From positions 1 to 39,745 of the forward strand of contig JAFWNY010000012.1 in assembly GCA_017510075.1 (NCBI GenBank): DNA of 39,745 nucleotides. Direction: 5' to 3'. Shown here piece after piece: positions 7,486-21,984 of this stretch. The position numbers and the translations under genes were made by a program. Below the pieces are notes generated by a model. The model was not told the DNA's origin and made no database searches. It saw only the letters and a program-made list of their open reading frames with translations. The DNA comes from Candidatus Saccharimonadota bacterium. GTDB taxonomy: Bacteria; Patescibacteriota; Saccharimonadia; Saccharimonadales; Saccharimonadaceae. Position 1 is the first letter of the stretch, and every line of letters starts with the position of its first letter.

Positions 7486-8574
7486 ATGAAGCGGCTACTT
7501 ATCGTCTATAATCCCAGATCATCTCGTTTTGATGACGTCAAACGCGAAGTCTTTCCAAAAACCAGACAACTAAAAGGTTACGTCACCGGTAAATACGAAA
7601 TCAAGCCCACCAATATCGAACAAAATATCACCGAGCTCGCCAAAATCGTCCAAGATGGCGATCTAATCATCTCCGCTGGCGGTGACGCTACTGGCGTCAT
7701 CTCGGCAAACGCCATCATAAAATCCCGTAAAGACGCCACTCTTGCCGTCTTGCCATATGGCAACTTCAACGACTTAGCGCGAACTCTCGGCACAATGAGG
7801 CTGGAAGACGTCTTTGGTGAAAAAGCATCGGAAGGGCTTCCTGAGGGATCTTTCGGAGGCTGCTGCCAGACCGCTGTAGGAGCCGAACAGACGAAAAGCT
7901 TGCTTTTCGTATCGAGGCGACGCCCAGCGGACGACCCGAAGGGTCGAGAACGAAAGAGCGCGAGCCCCGTGAAGACGGGCGCGAGCGACTCTGTGCCCGA
8001 AGGAAGCCCTTCTATGCTTTTCCCGTTAAAAATCATTGTGGACGGCAAGTTCTTCCGCTATGCCACTTGCTACGTCACCATCGGCATGACCGCCGAAGCC
8101 GTCAAGCTCTACGATAGCAAAAAAATGCGCCGCAAACTAAAACACAGTTTTGGCCGTAAAATCATCTCTTACACCGCAATTGCAAGCTGGTATTTCAAAA
8201 ATCGTCACAAACACCAGTTTATCCCTAGCTTTACTCTAAATAAACATCCCGAGTCCGCCAAGACTTCTGACTACTTCGCCATCAACGGCAGATCAATAGC
8301 GCACGTGATGCGTGGCGGGGAAGATTATCTTAGCCCTAAGACTTTCCGCAGCGAGACATATCGCCTCACTGGCTTTTTCCGCCTCGCCAAAATGATGCTG
8401 CGAAGCATGTTTCACCGTATTCCAAGCTCTGAGACTGCTGGTGATATCCTAGAATTTAGCGCCCCCGCCACCGTTACCATCCAAGCGGAAGGTGAGTCGC
8501 AGCAATTCACCAATATCCATAAAATCGAAATCAAAAAGACCACCAAATATCTGAAAGTCATCACACTAAACTAG
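7486..8574 (+). CDS. Diacylglycerol kinase-like lipid kinase, interrupted by an in-frame repeat
   Basis: Member of the DagK/YegS lipid-kinase family, which phosphorylates diacylglycerol or similar lipids. N-terminal signatures are LLIVYNPRSS, the ATP-binding SAGGDATGV (family GGDGT) and LPYGNFNDLARTLG (family LPxGTxNDFAR). The C-terminal part (FPLKIIVDGKFFRYA onward) fits the second family domain. Residues about 112-179 are foreign to the family. They are encoded by a palindromic repeat whose 162-bp core (7841-8002) recurs at 96% identity inside ileS. Without it the protein would be about 296 aa, the normal family length. Whether the insert is tolerated as an extra loop or disrupts the enzyme cannot be told from sequence. 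Confidence 0.88.
   Translation: MKRLLIVYNPRSSRFDDVKREVFPKTRQLKGYVTGKYEIKPTNIEQNITELAKIVQDGDLIISAGGDATGVISANAIIKSRKDATLAVLPYGNFNDLARTLGTMRLEDVFGEKASEGLPEGSFGGCCQTAVGAEQTKSLLFVSRRRPADDPKGRERKSASPVKTGASDSVPEGSPSMLFPLKIIVDGKFFRYATCYVTIGMTAEAVKLYDSKKMRRKLKHSFGRKIISYTAIASWYFKNRHKHQFIPSFTLNKHPESAKTSDYFAINGRSIAHVMRGGEDYLSPKTFRSETYRLTGFFRLAKMMLRSMFHRIPSSETAGDILEFSAPATVTIQAEGESQQFTNIHKIEIKKTTKYLKVITLN
7819..8022 (+). repeat. Palindromic in-frame insertion element, copy A
   Basis: The core 7841-8002 (162 bp, 54 codons) matches 20978-21139 inside ileS with 6 differences by eye. It contains perfect hairpins: ACGAAAAGC/GCTTTTCGT, CGACCC/GGGTCG and CCCGT/ACGGG. It is enclosed by inverted arms: GAAGGGCTTCCT (7831-7842) pairs with AGGAAGCCCTTC (8001-8012), and the pairing continues outward through GCAT to about 7819 and 8022. 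The arms have no similarity to those of copy B. The junction reads CT-GA-GGG...CCC-GA-AG. No stop codon occurs in the host frame. Confidence 0.9.
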
Positions 8575-12791: not shown

Positions 12792-12887
12792 ATTACATAA
12801 TTTACTACAATCGAGGGACATAAAGAAAAAATCTATGATTTTTTCGCCGAAGGGGCGAAGCTCCCGAGATGTAGTAAATTATGTAAT
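12792..12887. repeat. Inverted-repeat element between ftsA and ftsZ
   Basis: An 18-bp perfect inverted repeat: ATTACATAATTTACTACA (12792-12809) against its complement at 12870-12887. Imperfect pairing reaches outward to about 12778 and 12900, taking in the ftsA stop codon. Inside, AAAAAATC/GATTTTTT and TTCGCC/GGCGAA form two hairpins. The junction reads ATC-GA-GGG...CCC-GA-GAT, the same GA-GGG/CCC-GA signature as the element in the lipid kinase gene and ileS. It may also act as a transcription attenuator before ftsZ. Confidence 0.8.
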
Positions 12888-12947: not shown

Positions 12948-14114
12948 ATGCCAGAAGTAAAACCAACAGAGGTGGAAAGCAAAGCTAGCATTAAAGTAGT
13001 CGGGGTCGGCGGTGCCGGCGGCTCCGCTGTAGAACGTATGAAAGAAGTGGGCCTTTCTGGCGTTGAGTTCGTAGCTATTAATACTGATGCACAGGCCCTA
13101 CATCACTCCCCGGCCGATGTTAAAGTCCACATTGGTAAAGGTCTCGGCGCCGGCGGTGACCCTGAGAAAGGCCGCGAAGCTGCCGAAGAGGGCAGGGAAG
13201 CCATCGAGAAAGCTCTCGACGGTGCCGACATGGTCTTTATTACGTTGGGTGCTGGTGGTGGCACTGGTTCCGGTGCTGGTCCCATTGTTGCTGAGGAGGC
13301 CCGTAAGAAAGACATCCTCACCGTTGGCGTTGCCACTAAGCCGTTCACTTTCGAAGGCGCCCGTCGCCGTGCCAATGCTGACCTCGCCATCGAGAAGCTG
13401 TCTCGTCAGGTGGATGCTCTCATTACTATCCCTAATGATCGCCTCTTGCAGACCATTGATCCTCGTACTCCTCTTCTCGAGACTTTCAAGATTGCCGATG
13501 ATGTTTTGCGTCAAGGCGTTCAGGGTATCTCCGAATTAATCACCGAGCACTCTCTCATCAATCTAGACTTCGCCGATGTCAAGGCCATCATGAAAAATGC
13601 CGGCTCCGCCCTTATGGGTATTGGTCGTGCCAGCGGGGAAAACCGCGCCGTCATCGCCGCTCAGCAGGCTGTCGAATCACCGCTCATTGAGGTCAAGATC
13701 GAGGGCGCCCGCGGTGTACTATTCAGCGTGGCTGGTGGCTACGATATGAGTATGAGCGAGATTCAAGAGGCCGCTGAGGTCATCACTGGTGCCGTCTCGC
13801 CTGATGCCAACATTATCTTCGGTGCTTCCATCCGCCCAGAGCTGGAGGACGAGATCATCGTTACTGTTGTTGCTACCGGTTTTGATTCCGACTACTTCAA
13901 CGAGCCCGAGCCTACACCAGAGCCAGCTATAACTACTACCAGCTTCAAAGACGAGAAGCCTGCCGCCGAAGCCAAAGATTTCGCCCTCGAGAGCAAGACT
14001 AACATGTGGGATTCCATCAAGCACGACCCCGAGCCCGAGCCAGTTGCGGAAGATGACGACATGGACGTCCCCCCATCTCTCCGTGAGCGTCTCAAGGGTA
14101 AAAAACGCAAATAA
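12948..14114 (+). CDS. ftsZ: Cell division protein FtsZ
   Basis: Tubulin-like GTPase that forms the division ring. The 388-aa protein has the N-terminal VVGVGGAGGSAVERM, the tubulin signature GGGTGSGAGP (residues 103-112), the T7-loop segment NLDFADVKAIM with its catalytic Asp residues, and a Pro/Glu-rich linker after about residue 325. The C-terminal peptide DMDVPPSLRERLKGKKRK matches the FtsA/ZipA-binding tail (family pattern D-IP-FLR). The ribosome-binding site GAGG is 7-10 nt before the ATG. The nrdR-like gene follows after 18 nt and is probably cotranscribed. Confidence 0.97.
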   Translation: MPEVKPTEVESKASIKVVGVGGAGGSAVERMKEVGLSGVEFVAINTDAQALHHSPADVKVHIGKGLGAGGDPEKGREAAEEGREAIEKALDGADMVFITLGAGGGTGSGAGPIVAEEARKKDILTVGVATKPFTFEGARRRANADLAIEKLSRQVDALITIPNDRLLQTIDPRTPLLETFKIADDVLRQGVQGISELITEHSLINLDFADVKAIMKNAGSALMGIGRASGENRAVIAAQQAVESPLIEVKIEGARGVLFSVAGGYDMSMSEIQEAAEVITGAVSPDANIIFGASIRPELEDEIIVTVVATGFDSDYFNEPEPTPEPAITTTSFKDEKPAAEAKDFALESKTNMWDSIKHDPEPEPVAEDDDMDVPPSLRERLKGKKRK

Positions 14115-18600: not shown

Positions 18601-18771
18601 AAGCACCCGAGCAGCTATCACCTGCGAGCTGGCGGAAGAACAGGGATTACCCTTATTAGACCCGCCCGTGAGTCCGCGTAAGAGATCAATTAAGTGCCGA
18701 GCATTAAGCTCGGAAATTGGATGGTACCACTTTCAATCGAGAGTTCCAATGGCAAAACCATTGGATTTTTT
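18601..18771 (+). promoter_or_regulatory. T-box riboswitch of ileS with very short Stem I
   Basis: Senses uncharged tRNA-Ile. A small hairpin GCAG-CTATCAC-CTGC (18611-18625) carries the specifier codon ATC (18617-18619) in its loop. A stem III hairpin CCGAGC/GCTCGG (18697-18713) precedes the T-box AATTGGATGGTACCAC. TGGT (18722-18725) would pair with the ACCA end of tRNA-Ile. The segment TCCAATGG (18745-18752) has two partners. TTGGA (18717-18721) forms the antiterminator; CCATTGGA (18758-18765) forms a terminator followed by six T. Short Stem I is known for actinobacterial ileS T-boxes, which control translation; here the output looks transcriptional. Confidence 0.88.
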
Positions 18772-18786
18772 AATAAAGGAGCAAAC

Positions 18787-21700
18787 ATGAAATACCAAGC
18801 TGGACAACGCCGCAAAGCGGTTGAATACGAAAAAGCCCTCACCGAGTGGTGGAAGAAGAACAAAACCTTTGAAAAATCAGTTGAGCAACGCCCGATTGAT
18901 AATTCCTACGTCTTTTACGACGGCCCTCCGTTCATTACTGGCAACCCCCACCACGGCACACTCCTTAGCTCCATCGTCAAAGACGCCGTCCCGCGCTACT
19001 GGACTATGAACGGCTACCGCGTAGAGCGTCGTTGGGGCTGGGACTGCCACAGTCTCCCCGCCGAGAACTTTGTCGAAAAACAGCTCGGTATCACTGACCG
19101 CCGCGACATCGGTACTAAATGGACTCTTGAAGATTATATCATCAAAGCCCGCGAATCCATGGTGGCAAACTCCGAAACTTGGCGCAGTACTATCGACCGC
19201 GTCGGCCGCTGGGTCGATTTCGACAACTGCTATCGCACCATGAACAAAGATTTCATGGAATCCGTCTGGTGGGCCTTCAAAAAATTATACGAGGCTGGCA
19301 AAATCTACGAGGGTCGCAAAGTCTTGATGTATGACACCAAATTTGCTACCCCCGTATCCAAAGCCGAAGTCACCATGGACAACGATGCCTATCAGACCGT
19401 CACCGACCCCAGCGCCTACGTCAAGTTCAGACTAGTAGATGGCGAACTCGGAAATACTTTCATCGAAGGGGGTCCGGAGCCTGGCAAGGCGAGGAGTAGC
19501 GCCACAACCCCTGTGGCGACAGGGGTTGTGGATGCGCCCCGAGAGGGAAGTATTTCGAGTTCGCAAACTGTCTATATGCTAGCTTGGACGACTACGCCTT
19601 GGACCTTGATGGCCAACCGCGCCCTCGCCGTCAGCAAAGATCTCGATTACGGCGTCTATGATGTAGATGGCGAAAAGCTCATCGTTGCCAAGAAGCTCGC
19701 CGAAAAGCTTTTTGAAGTAAAACCCGAGAAAATTCTCAAAGGTGAAGACCTCGCAGGTTTAGAATACGAATCCATCGACGGCACGATTTGCAAAGTCTTC
19801 ACTGCCGATTTTGTCGGCGAGGAAGAGGGTACCGGCATCGTCCATATCGCTCCCGCTTATGGTGAAGACGACTACGCCCTCTACCTAGACCACCAAAACG
19901 AAATTGGCTTCGTTGATACCCTCGACGAAAACGGCTACTACACCAAAGAATACGCCGACAAACTACACGCCCTCGGCGTCCGCGATACCGACGAACACGG
20001 CATCCAGATTTGGGCTGGCAATAAATTCATCGCCAAATGTCTGGAAGAAAAGGGAATTATTTACAAAATTGAATACATTCAGCACGAATACCCCTTTAAT
20101 CCGCGCTCCAAAGAACGCATTATGTATCGTGCCTTCCCGTCTTGGTTCTTTGATGTCGAAGGTCAGAAACCTCTCATGCTCGCCGAGAACGAGAATATTA
20201 ACTGGTTCCCAGGCTATCTAAAACACGGCCGCTTCGCTAAAAATATCGAAGCCGCCCCAGATTGGAATTTGTCTCGCGACCGTTTCTGGGCTACCGCTAT
20301 GCCAGTCTGGAAAGGCGACAAAGGTTCCATTAAAGTCATCGGCTCCTATAAGGAACTGAAAGATCTCTCCGGCAAAGAGCTCGAAGACTACCACCGACCA
20401 TGGGTAGATGATATTACTTTTGATATCGATGGCGAGCATTTCACCCGTATCGACAAAGTCCTCGACTGCTGGTTCGAATCTGGCTCCATGCCATTTGCTC
20501 AGCTCCACTATCCATTCGAAAACAAAGAAAAGTTCGAAGCCAATTACCCGGCCGACTTTATCGTCGAGTATGTTGGCCAGGTCCGGGCTTGGTTCTACTA
20601 TGTCCATACCGTTAATACCACCCTCGCTGAGATTGGCGCCTTTGGTGAAAAGGCCAAAAACGGTCCCAAGAATGCTTACAAAAATGTCATCACTACCGGC
20701 ACCTTGGCGGGGAACGATGGTCGCAAGATGAGTAAATCTCTCGGCAACTTTACCGACCCGAATATCTTGATGGACCAATATTCCGCCGATGCTCTCCGTT
20801 TCTTGCTCCTCAGCTCCCCAGTTCTCTCTGGCGAAGACTTCGCCCTCCTCGACAAAGATGTCTCCGACATCAACCGCAAACTCGCCATGATTTGGAACGT
20901 CTACGACTTCTTCACTACTTATGCGGAGCTAGAAAATCTAGAATCCGAACAGTTCGAAAGAACGCCAGAATGGTGCTCTGAGGGATCTTTCGGAGGCTGC
21001 CGCCAGACCGCTGTAGGAGCCGAACAGACGAAAAGCTTGCTTTTCGTATCGAAGCGACGCCCAGCGGACGACCCGAAGGGTCGAGAACGAAGGAGCGCTC
21101 GCCCCGTGAAGACGGGCGCGAGCGACTCCGTGCCCGAAGAGCGCCATTCGGCGTTCTCGGCTAATCCGTTAGATGTTTGGATTATCTCTCGCCTCTACCA
21201 ACTACGTGACGAAATTACTGCAGGCATGTCAGAATACAACATCCCGAAGGCCCTCGCCGGCGTCCTTCCGTTTATAGACGATTTAAGCAACTGGTTCGTC
21301 CGCCGCTCCCGCCGCCGCTTCAGCAAAAACGACGACCAAGAGGACAAGCAAAACGCCTTCGCTACCCTCCATTACGTCCTGGTTTACTTATCCAAACTCC
21401 TCGCCCCCTCCACCCCCTTCCTCGCCGAGGAATTATACCAAAAAATGACCGGGAGAGACGGCTCCGTCCACCTCCTCGACTGGCCAGAACCAGGTGAAAT
21501 CGATCACGAAGTTCTCGATAACATGGCGCGCACTCGCCAAATCATCACCGACGCCCTCGCCCTCCGTATGCAAAAGTCAGACACCGAGGAGCAAATCAAA
21601 ATCCGCCAGCCGCTAAGCAAACTCACCTACACCGGCGACAAGCTTGATGATTTCTACGAACAAATCATCGCCGATGAGGTAAACGTGAAAAAAGTCGAAA

Positions 21701-21984
21701 ACACCAAAGAATTCACGCTCGACAAAACCCTCACTAAAGAGCTGAGGGAAGAGGGCACCGCCCGCGAAATCATCCGCGCCGTCCAAGCCGCTCGCAAGCG
21801 CGCCGGCCTGAAGCAAGACGACCAGATCAGACTCTCCCTCTCTATCACCCCCCCAGAGCAATACCTGGACCTCATCAAGTCGGAAACTGGCACCAAAGAG
21901 CTTAACCTGCAAGGCAACTATGCCCACGACGAAATCGCTAAAGTAAACGGCGAAAACCTCACCATCTCCCTCGAAAAACTCTAA
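18787..21984 (+). CDS. ileS: Isoleucyl-tRNA synthetase, eukaryote-like type, with two in-frame inserts
   Basis: Charges tRNA-Ile; class I synthetase with a CP1 editing domain. The start is ATG 18787, just after AAAGGAG and the T-box terminator; the open frame further upstream is riboswitch sequence. Segments such as RVGRWVDFDN, DFMESVWWAFKKLYE and LAWTTTPWTL resemble the eukaryote-like IleRS2 group, which is often mupirocin-tolerant (inference). The HIGH motif reads HHGT (residues 55-58), with Thr for the last His. KMSKS is intact (647-651). Two palindromic inserts are translated in frame: residues about 219-259 at the edge of the editing domain and about 725-790 after KMSKS. The C-terminal zinc finger of type 1 enzymes is absent. 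Confidence 0.95.
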   Translation: MKYQAGQRRKAVEYEKALTEWWKKNKTFEKSVEQRPIDNSYVFYDGPPFITGNPHHGTLLSSIVKDAVPRYWTMNGYRVERRWGWDCHSLPAENFVEKQLGITDRRDIGTKWTLEDYIIKARESMVANSETWRSTIDRVGRWVDFDNCYRTMNKDFMESVWWAFKKLYEAGKIYEGRKVLMYDTKFATPVSKAEVTMDNDAYQTVTDPSAYVKFRLVDGELGNTFIEGGPEPGKARSSATTPVATGVVDAPREGSISSSQTVYMLAWTTTPWTLMANRALAVSKDLDYGVYDVDGEKLIVAKKLAEKLFEVKPEKILKGEDLAGLEYESIDGTICKVFTADFVGEEEGTGIVHIAPAYGEDDYALYLDHQNEIGFVDTLDENGYYTKEYADKLHALGVRDTDEHGIQIWAGNKFIAKCLEEKGIIYKIEYIQHEYPFNPRSKERIMYRAFPSWFFDVEGQKPLMLAENENINWFPGYLKHGRFAKNIEAAPDWNLSRDRFWATAMPVWKGDKGSIKVIGSYKELKDLSGKELEDYHRPWVDDITFDIDGEHFTRIDKVLDCWFESGSMPFAQLHYPFENKEKFEANYPADFIVEYVGQVRAWFYYVHTVNTTLAEIGAFGEKAKNGPKNAYKNVITTGTLAGNDGRKMSKSLGNFTDPNILMDQYSADALRFLLLSSPVLSGEDFALLDKDVSDINRKLAMIWNVYDFFTTYAELENLESEQFERTPEWCSEGSFGGCRQTAVGAEQTKSLLFVSKRRPADDPKGRERRSARPVKTGASDSVPEERHSAFSANPLDVWIISRLYQLRDEITAGMSEYNIPKALAGVLPFIDDLSNWFVRRSRRRFSKNDDQEDKQNAFATLHYVLVYLSKLLAPSTPFLAEELYQKMTGRDGSVHLLDWPEPGEIDHEVLDNMARTRQIITDALALRMQKSDTEEQIKIRQPLSKLTYTGDKLDDFYEQIIADEVNVKKVENTKEFTLDKTLTKELREEGTAREIIRAVQAARKRAGLKQDDQIRLSLSITPPEQYLDLIKSETGTKELNLQGNYAHDEIAKVNGENLTISLEKL
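19442..19564 (+). repeat. Palindromic in-frame insert in ileS, element C
   Basis: Arms GCGAACTCG-G-AAATACTTTC (19442-19461) and GAAGTATTTCGAGTTCGC (19547-19564) are complementary except for two bulged bases. The 85-bp core holds a perfect hairpin ACAACCCCTGT/ACAGGGGTTGT around GGCG. The junction reads TC-GAA-GGGG...CCCC-GA-GA, the GA-GGG/CCC-GA signature seen in copies A and B, though the core sequence is otherwise different. The reading frame stays open and adds about 40 residues absent from the family. Confidence 0.8.
20959..21157 (+). repeat. Palindromic in-frame insertion element, copy B
   Basis: The core 20978-21139 is 162 bp and about 96% identical to 7841-8002, in the same orientation and codon phase. 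Both encode the peptide stretch QTAVGAEQTKSLLFVS and RRPADDPKGRER. The arms (20959-20979 and 21138-21157) pair over 19-20 bp with one bulge and one G-T pair (AGAACGCC, GAATGG, GCTCT) but share nothing with the arms of copy A. Confidence 0.9.

Follow-up and report, generated by a model that had tools for sequence, protein, structure and literature searches.

How does one and the same segment of DNA come to lie, in frame, within the genes of two unrelated enzymes, and what becomes of it there? The question is raised by a DagK-like lipid kinase gene and the isoleucyl-tRNA synthetase gene ileS of a Saccharimonadaceae bacterium, both located in the window, the whole 39,745-nucleotide stretch analysed here. 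Selfish palindromes kept in frame have been described before, in Rickettsia, in Wolbachia and in one archaeon. We put the probability at about three in four that the shared segment belongs to a comparable family, a non-autonomous, selfish palindrome that would be translated with its hosts in the manner of Rickettsia palindromic elements (RPEs). Its folded core, ~76-85 nt long, is spread over the genome and the genus.

A composite palindrome in dagK and ileS

Pairwise comparison of 7841-8002 with 20978-21139 found identity at 156 of 162 positions (96%; BLAST E=9e-73 within the genome), so that the six differences reported in an earlier note on this DNA proved exact. They fall at 7864, 7916, 7955, 7962, 7963 and 7992 of the dagK copy. 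The note was also right that both copies share strand, codon phase (phase 1) and a frame in use without stop codons. Identity ends abruptly, with an exact extension of 0 nt at either side, and the pair is far beyond chance. Two of the six differences amount to one compensatory base-pair swap: A7955-U7992 of the dagK copy, positions paired in the predicted fold, is G-C in ileS. Folded with their flanks, the copies reach z scores of -7.0 (dagK) and -6.3 (ileS), and none of 200 dinucleotide shuffles was as stable as either. These folds bear out the hairpins noticed in the core and extend the stem into flanks whose sequence differs per site. Pfam likewise upheld the proposed hosts, a DAGK_cat protein and an IleRS.

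The repeat had been taken for a single unit; 162 bp are indeed present, but they comprise two nested elements (Table 1). At other loci, family A stands alone, its first 27 and last 58 nt joined into ~85 nt without the middle ~77 nt. The middle part, family D, occurs elsewhere without A (query 26-96 alone; L207 in another species' dagK). Because each is found without the other, the 162-bp core is a composite, 27 + 58 nt of A around ~77 nt of D. The two copies first recognized in the window are both real, but a third, in ileS at 19449-19560, had been missed. From an alignment of 24 short A copies a three-way junction was predicted. It has 24 pairs, and at 15 of them there are compensatory changes on both sides; a covariance model of family A (R1) was used for genome searches. 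Elsewhere in the window, just upstream of an ftsZ-like gene at 12948, lies a perfect 18-bp inverted repeat (12792-12809 / 12870-12887, 60 bp between arms) that is unrelated to the element.

Table 1. Host genes, cores and stem arms located in the window
Feature	Position	Strand	Description and basis
Host gene 1, DagK-like lipid kinase	7486..8574	+	362 codons, open through element; Pfam DAGK_cat E=1e-11, residues 3-104
Composite core 1 (family A, family D nested)	7841..8002	+	162 bp; fold, covariance-model match (R1)
Family A core, 5' part	7841..7867	+	Short copies elsewhere are query 1-27 joined directly to 105-162
Nested family D palindrome	7868..7944	+	~77 bp, GACCGCTG...CAGCGGACGACC; found without A at other loci
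Family A core, 3' part (hairpin P3, CCCGTGAAGACGGG)	7945..8002	+	Short copies, alignment fold
Site-specific stem, 5' arm, dagK copy	7819..7840	+	Inverted repeats I5/I15; fold
Site-specific stem, 3' arm, dagK copy	8003..8024	+	Inverted repeats; fold
Host gene 2, ileS (isoleucyl-tRNA synthetase)	18694..21984	+	1096 codons; two elements inside; Pfam, solved-structure alignment
Composite core 2 (A; nested D ~21005-21081)	20978..21139	+	96% identical to core 1
Stem 5' arm, ileS loop 2	20960..20977	+	GAACGCCAGAATGGTGCT, one bulged A
Stem 3' arm, ileS loop 2	21140..21156	+	AGCGCCATTCGGCGTTC
Third, divergent member (A' type), ileS loop 1	19449..19560	+	In frame; cmsearch 39.2 bits, E=8.5e-13
Own arms of third member	19437-19453 / 19553-19569	+	Inverted repeat I7

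Distribution and life within host genes

The earlier note's claim of a mobile element hung on further copies in this genome and in other Saccharibacteria, and very many were found. R1 retrieved ~12 good family A copies from the genome itself and matched 108 of 118 congeneric genomes (E<=1e-5), the fullest of which hold at least 32 copies each (32 candidates scored per genome). Run on 295 genomes sampled across the class, R1 matched five sister genera of the same family and none of the other families sampled. In one of these genera (g76; L146, L147, L151, L152, L174), copies form opposed, closely spaced, BIME-like pairs near gene boundaries. The exact core motif, sought in 84,980 species genomes, returned 56 matches, all from Candidatus Saccharibacteria and many from the gut of sheep, goat, yak or buffalo. 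Carriage by phage was rejected on the absence of this exact motif from the viral contig collection.

More than half of the unique copies (92 of 164) lie, at 37 host sites, within open reading frames that are 250 codons or longer; hosts in the genome of the window, named by sequence, are ligA, recX, tlyA, der, the dagK-like gene, ileS (twice), queA, typA, truB and folD. Genic copies occur in both orientations with five of six frames in use, so the insert peptide is not conserved, and the earlier reading of one peptide in one frame holds for the window pair but not for the family. The commonest frames do give a hydrophilic, stop-free peptide, as a useful linker or domain might require; set against the use of both strands and five frames, selection for the encoded peptide itself is scarcely credible.

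What the insertions do to their hosts is evident from orthologous genes. We located 110 orthologues through their flanks, disregarding openness (30 DagK, 30 IleS with its two loops, 50 TruB), and all were continuous, filled or empty. In a large share, these loops are empty; the others are occupied by A, A', C, D or further palindromes. Most relatives of dagK without the insert have open frames of ~301-312 aa, and the length of the loop varies among them. When IleS is aligned with solved IleRS, its two inserts coincide exactly with gaps (query 248-291 against chain 212-215; 754-822 against 666-670). Comparison of DagK and IleRS homologues, as the earlier note had proposed, showed that most do not conserve the segment at these positions, the loop being empty or occupied by another element in other species. 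As expected of RPE-like elements, the family comprises dispersed palindromes of ~80-170 bp in several families, in frame within unrelated conserved genes of which none is broken, and in loops off the conserved fold, as judged by the IleRS alignment gaps and the variable DagK loop. Two copies without a spanning reading frame that seemed to interrupt a gene were matches to shadow ORFs (small protein set, low power).

The same loops accommodate other palindromes. An unrelated family, TGGGCGGGTG..GGAGCTGGGG...GAGCACGGTGGGGGAAACTGC...GGACCCGCC, sits in frame in dagK (L215, L217, L231, L233) and truB (L245, L250, L255, L274). The family C insert at L274 (truB, G072) has an arm duplicated in tandem together with the first part of the core, and the frame is kept. 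A longer in-frame palindrome, CAGTCATTTT..ACAAC...GTTGT..AAAATGAC..TGCGAGCC, in ileS loop 2 (L176) and truB (L241) apparently represents a further family.

Translation of the insert is the likeliest outcome, giving a hydrophilic linker of 30-60 residues that is tolerated rather than removed. This reading is favoured by the finding that genic copies occur only in permissive loops and only with a total length and frame that leave the ORF intact. Excision at the RNA level appears unlikely from the same comparisons. In its favour, the mRNA would contain a strong, closed and often bulged hairpin. A small intron or a byp-like ribosomal bypass would free the insert in length and allow stops, yet all 110 orthologues are in frame and stop-free. 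The frames used by genes are mostly closed in intergenic copies: of 57 copies that no ORF spans, 23% have them open. The element also lies in either direction with respect to the gene, which a single structured RNA would not permit. Comparison with Rfam introns, ribozymes and known RNA families gave nothing near gathering thresholds. We consequently regard removal or bypass as very improbable, and continue with tolerated translation.

Site-specific arms, exchangeable cores and the means of spread

The core is closed by a stem of ~22 nt, frequently with a 1-nt bulge in its 5' arm, and pairing reaches background ~23 nt out. The two arms of a copy pair with a median score of 41, compared with 9.5 for shuffled partners, and 60 of 100 copies exceed the 99% null. 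Arm sequence hardly follows core identity: same-genome pairs at different sites with cores at least 95% identical have a median arm identity of 0.58, against 0.50 where cores are less than 80% identical; with shuffled arms it is 0.45, the 95% limit being 0.57. The dagK/ileS pair of the window exemplifies near-identical cores with unrelated arms. The arms are thus site-specific yet self-complementary, and they remain complementary as they diverge. Orthologous arms contain 216 compensated pairs versus 129 with random partners, and 190 broken pairs versus 398; in three species the recX arms read ATGGGG/CCCCAT, ATAGGG/CCCTAT and ATAGAG/CTCTAT.

Conserved folding and compensated arms are also what a structured RNA or DNA motif of benefit to the host would display, if selected at these places for mRNA stability, attenuation or replication. 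Such a motif would hardly be expected in both orientations, in many unrelated hosts and at intergenic sites, nor to fill orthologous sites patchily or share one loop with several unrelated families, and we hold this explanation to be improbable. The selfish palindrome remains the preferred reading.

Cores can change within a site. Between the TruB arms AGATTCAAGAATA/TATTCTTGAATCT lie cores of type A, in either orientation, of type A' or of the unrelated family C. Among orthologous copies, 45 pairs are mutually inverted; in some of these, arm identity is 0.73-0.77 and core identity reaches 0.96 (L093/L098: arms 0.73, core 0.96). At IleS loop 1, the A cores of G005 and G064 point in opposite directions within arms that resemble each other. 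Two sites (L181, L272) are apparently decayed, with the core mostly lost. Since shared arms surround flipped or replaced cores, the core acts as a unit that is swapped or flipped within a resident stem.

The genomes offer no candidate mover. The Y1 transposase (PF01797) is absent from 113 of 116 congeners, the genome of the window (G000) included, and mobilisation by IS200/IS605 or RAYT was rejected with Y1 present in 3 of 116 genomes. A reverse transcriptase is present in 67 of the 116; by inspection it has no visible relation to copy load, there being genomes with many copies and none listed (for example G003, G018, G035, G038 and G054) and genomes that have one and zero copies (G057, G078, G080, G091, G097), and it too was rejected as the mover. 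We infer template switching at the hairpin as the most economical account. At the replication fork the stem would fold single-stranded DNA into a hairpin, and template switching there could overwrite the core from other copies, as in conversion; switching across the inverted arms could invert the core in situ; and repair of one arm from its partner would let the arms drift while staying complementary. Cores would then be cassettes exchanged and inverted in site-resident stems that are rewritten from the opposite arm, a mobile DNA of episymbiont genes driven by template switching without a transposase. We advance this full scheme tentatively.

In its main rival, insertion of the core would be the work of an unknown enzyme, a recombinase or a polymerase, which by fold-back synthesis also duplicates ~22 nt of the flank in inverted form. 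Such writing of arms at insertion would account for identical cores that travel without their arms, and for pairing that is lost at ~23 nt and carries a 1-nt bulge. At IleS loop 2 a native host flank may have been inversely copied: there the left arm is similar to the native stretch D-E-L-E-K, and the right arm complements the left. TruB and IleS loop 1 conflict with that origin: the TruB arms are common to different cores, so arms can predate cores, and at IleS loop 1 both arms are apparently added DNA, the net gain over empty sites being ~40 codons, or about two arms plus the core. The arms in general also share a weak pattern, with TTT beside the core and AAA at 10-13 nt. Together, this weak consensus and the IleS loop 1 gain suggest that the ancestral element brought its arms along; arms may come in with the element and then diverge. 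We consider fold-back writing doubtful.

Significance and relation to known palindromes

These data reveal a large, undescribed family of selfish in-frame hairpins in essential genes of gut Saccharibacteria. In agreement with the earlier note, which knew of no such family in CPR bacteria, the open-licence literature searched contained no description of palindromic elements of Saccharibacteria or Patescibacteria. In-frame palindromes have accordingly arisen in a further genome-reduced, host-dependent lineage, where the family is very large and structured. With more than 100 species genomes that present filled, empty, inverted and replaced loops, and with near-identical cores in different arms, the long-standing question of their transposase-free spread becomes directly testable. 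Foreign loops in essential enzymes (IleRS, TruB, Der, LigA, QueA and others) can also mislead annotation, phylogeny and structure prediction.

Several known systems resemble the element in part. REP/BIME sequences with RAYT (Y1) and bacterial MITEs are likewise short palindromes that are dispersed and carry no gene, and the inverted pairs of the sister genus recall BIMEs; here, however, Y1 is missing from 113 of 116 genomes, copies are mostly genic and terminal repeats vary per copy. The byps of Magnusiomyces mitochondria, which PMC6649704 cites as coding-gene hairpins skipped in translation, are similarly scattered over coding genes, but they are bypassed, whereas the Saccharibacteria elements keep frame and openness. 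Nematomorph mitochondria contain coding palindromes with co-maintained arms, for which template switching has been proposed (PMC6649704). These too lie within coding genes, and their arms stay complementary while the sequence varies between sites; they differ in being mitochondrial, in lacking a conserved core or dispersed family, and in having perfect arms of up to 142 bp.

The nearest parallel, as the earlier note had recognized, is the RPE, a mobile palindrome in frame within unrelated genes, which is what our data show. RPEs (Ogata et al. 2000, 2002) and Wolbachia palindromic elements (WPEs) are described in PMC10969869 and PMC3767692 as palindromes in frame within genes. Both they and the present families are palindromes of ~100-150 bp, in several families, found in unrelated housekeeping genes and in spacers of a genome-reduced, host-dependent lineage, with QueA and PheT (by sequence) as common hosts. 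Both are loop inserts, solvent-exposed in RPEs and placed here by alignment gaps. The Saccharibacteria element belongs to another phylum, and its exact core motif occurs, among the 84,980 species genomes, only in Saccharibacteria. It further differs in its co-varying, site-specific arms, in the inversion and exchange of cores at orthologous sites, in the nesting of one family in another and in its use of both strands and five frames. The element works like an RPE, and the likeness is one of kind.
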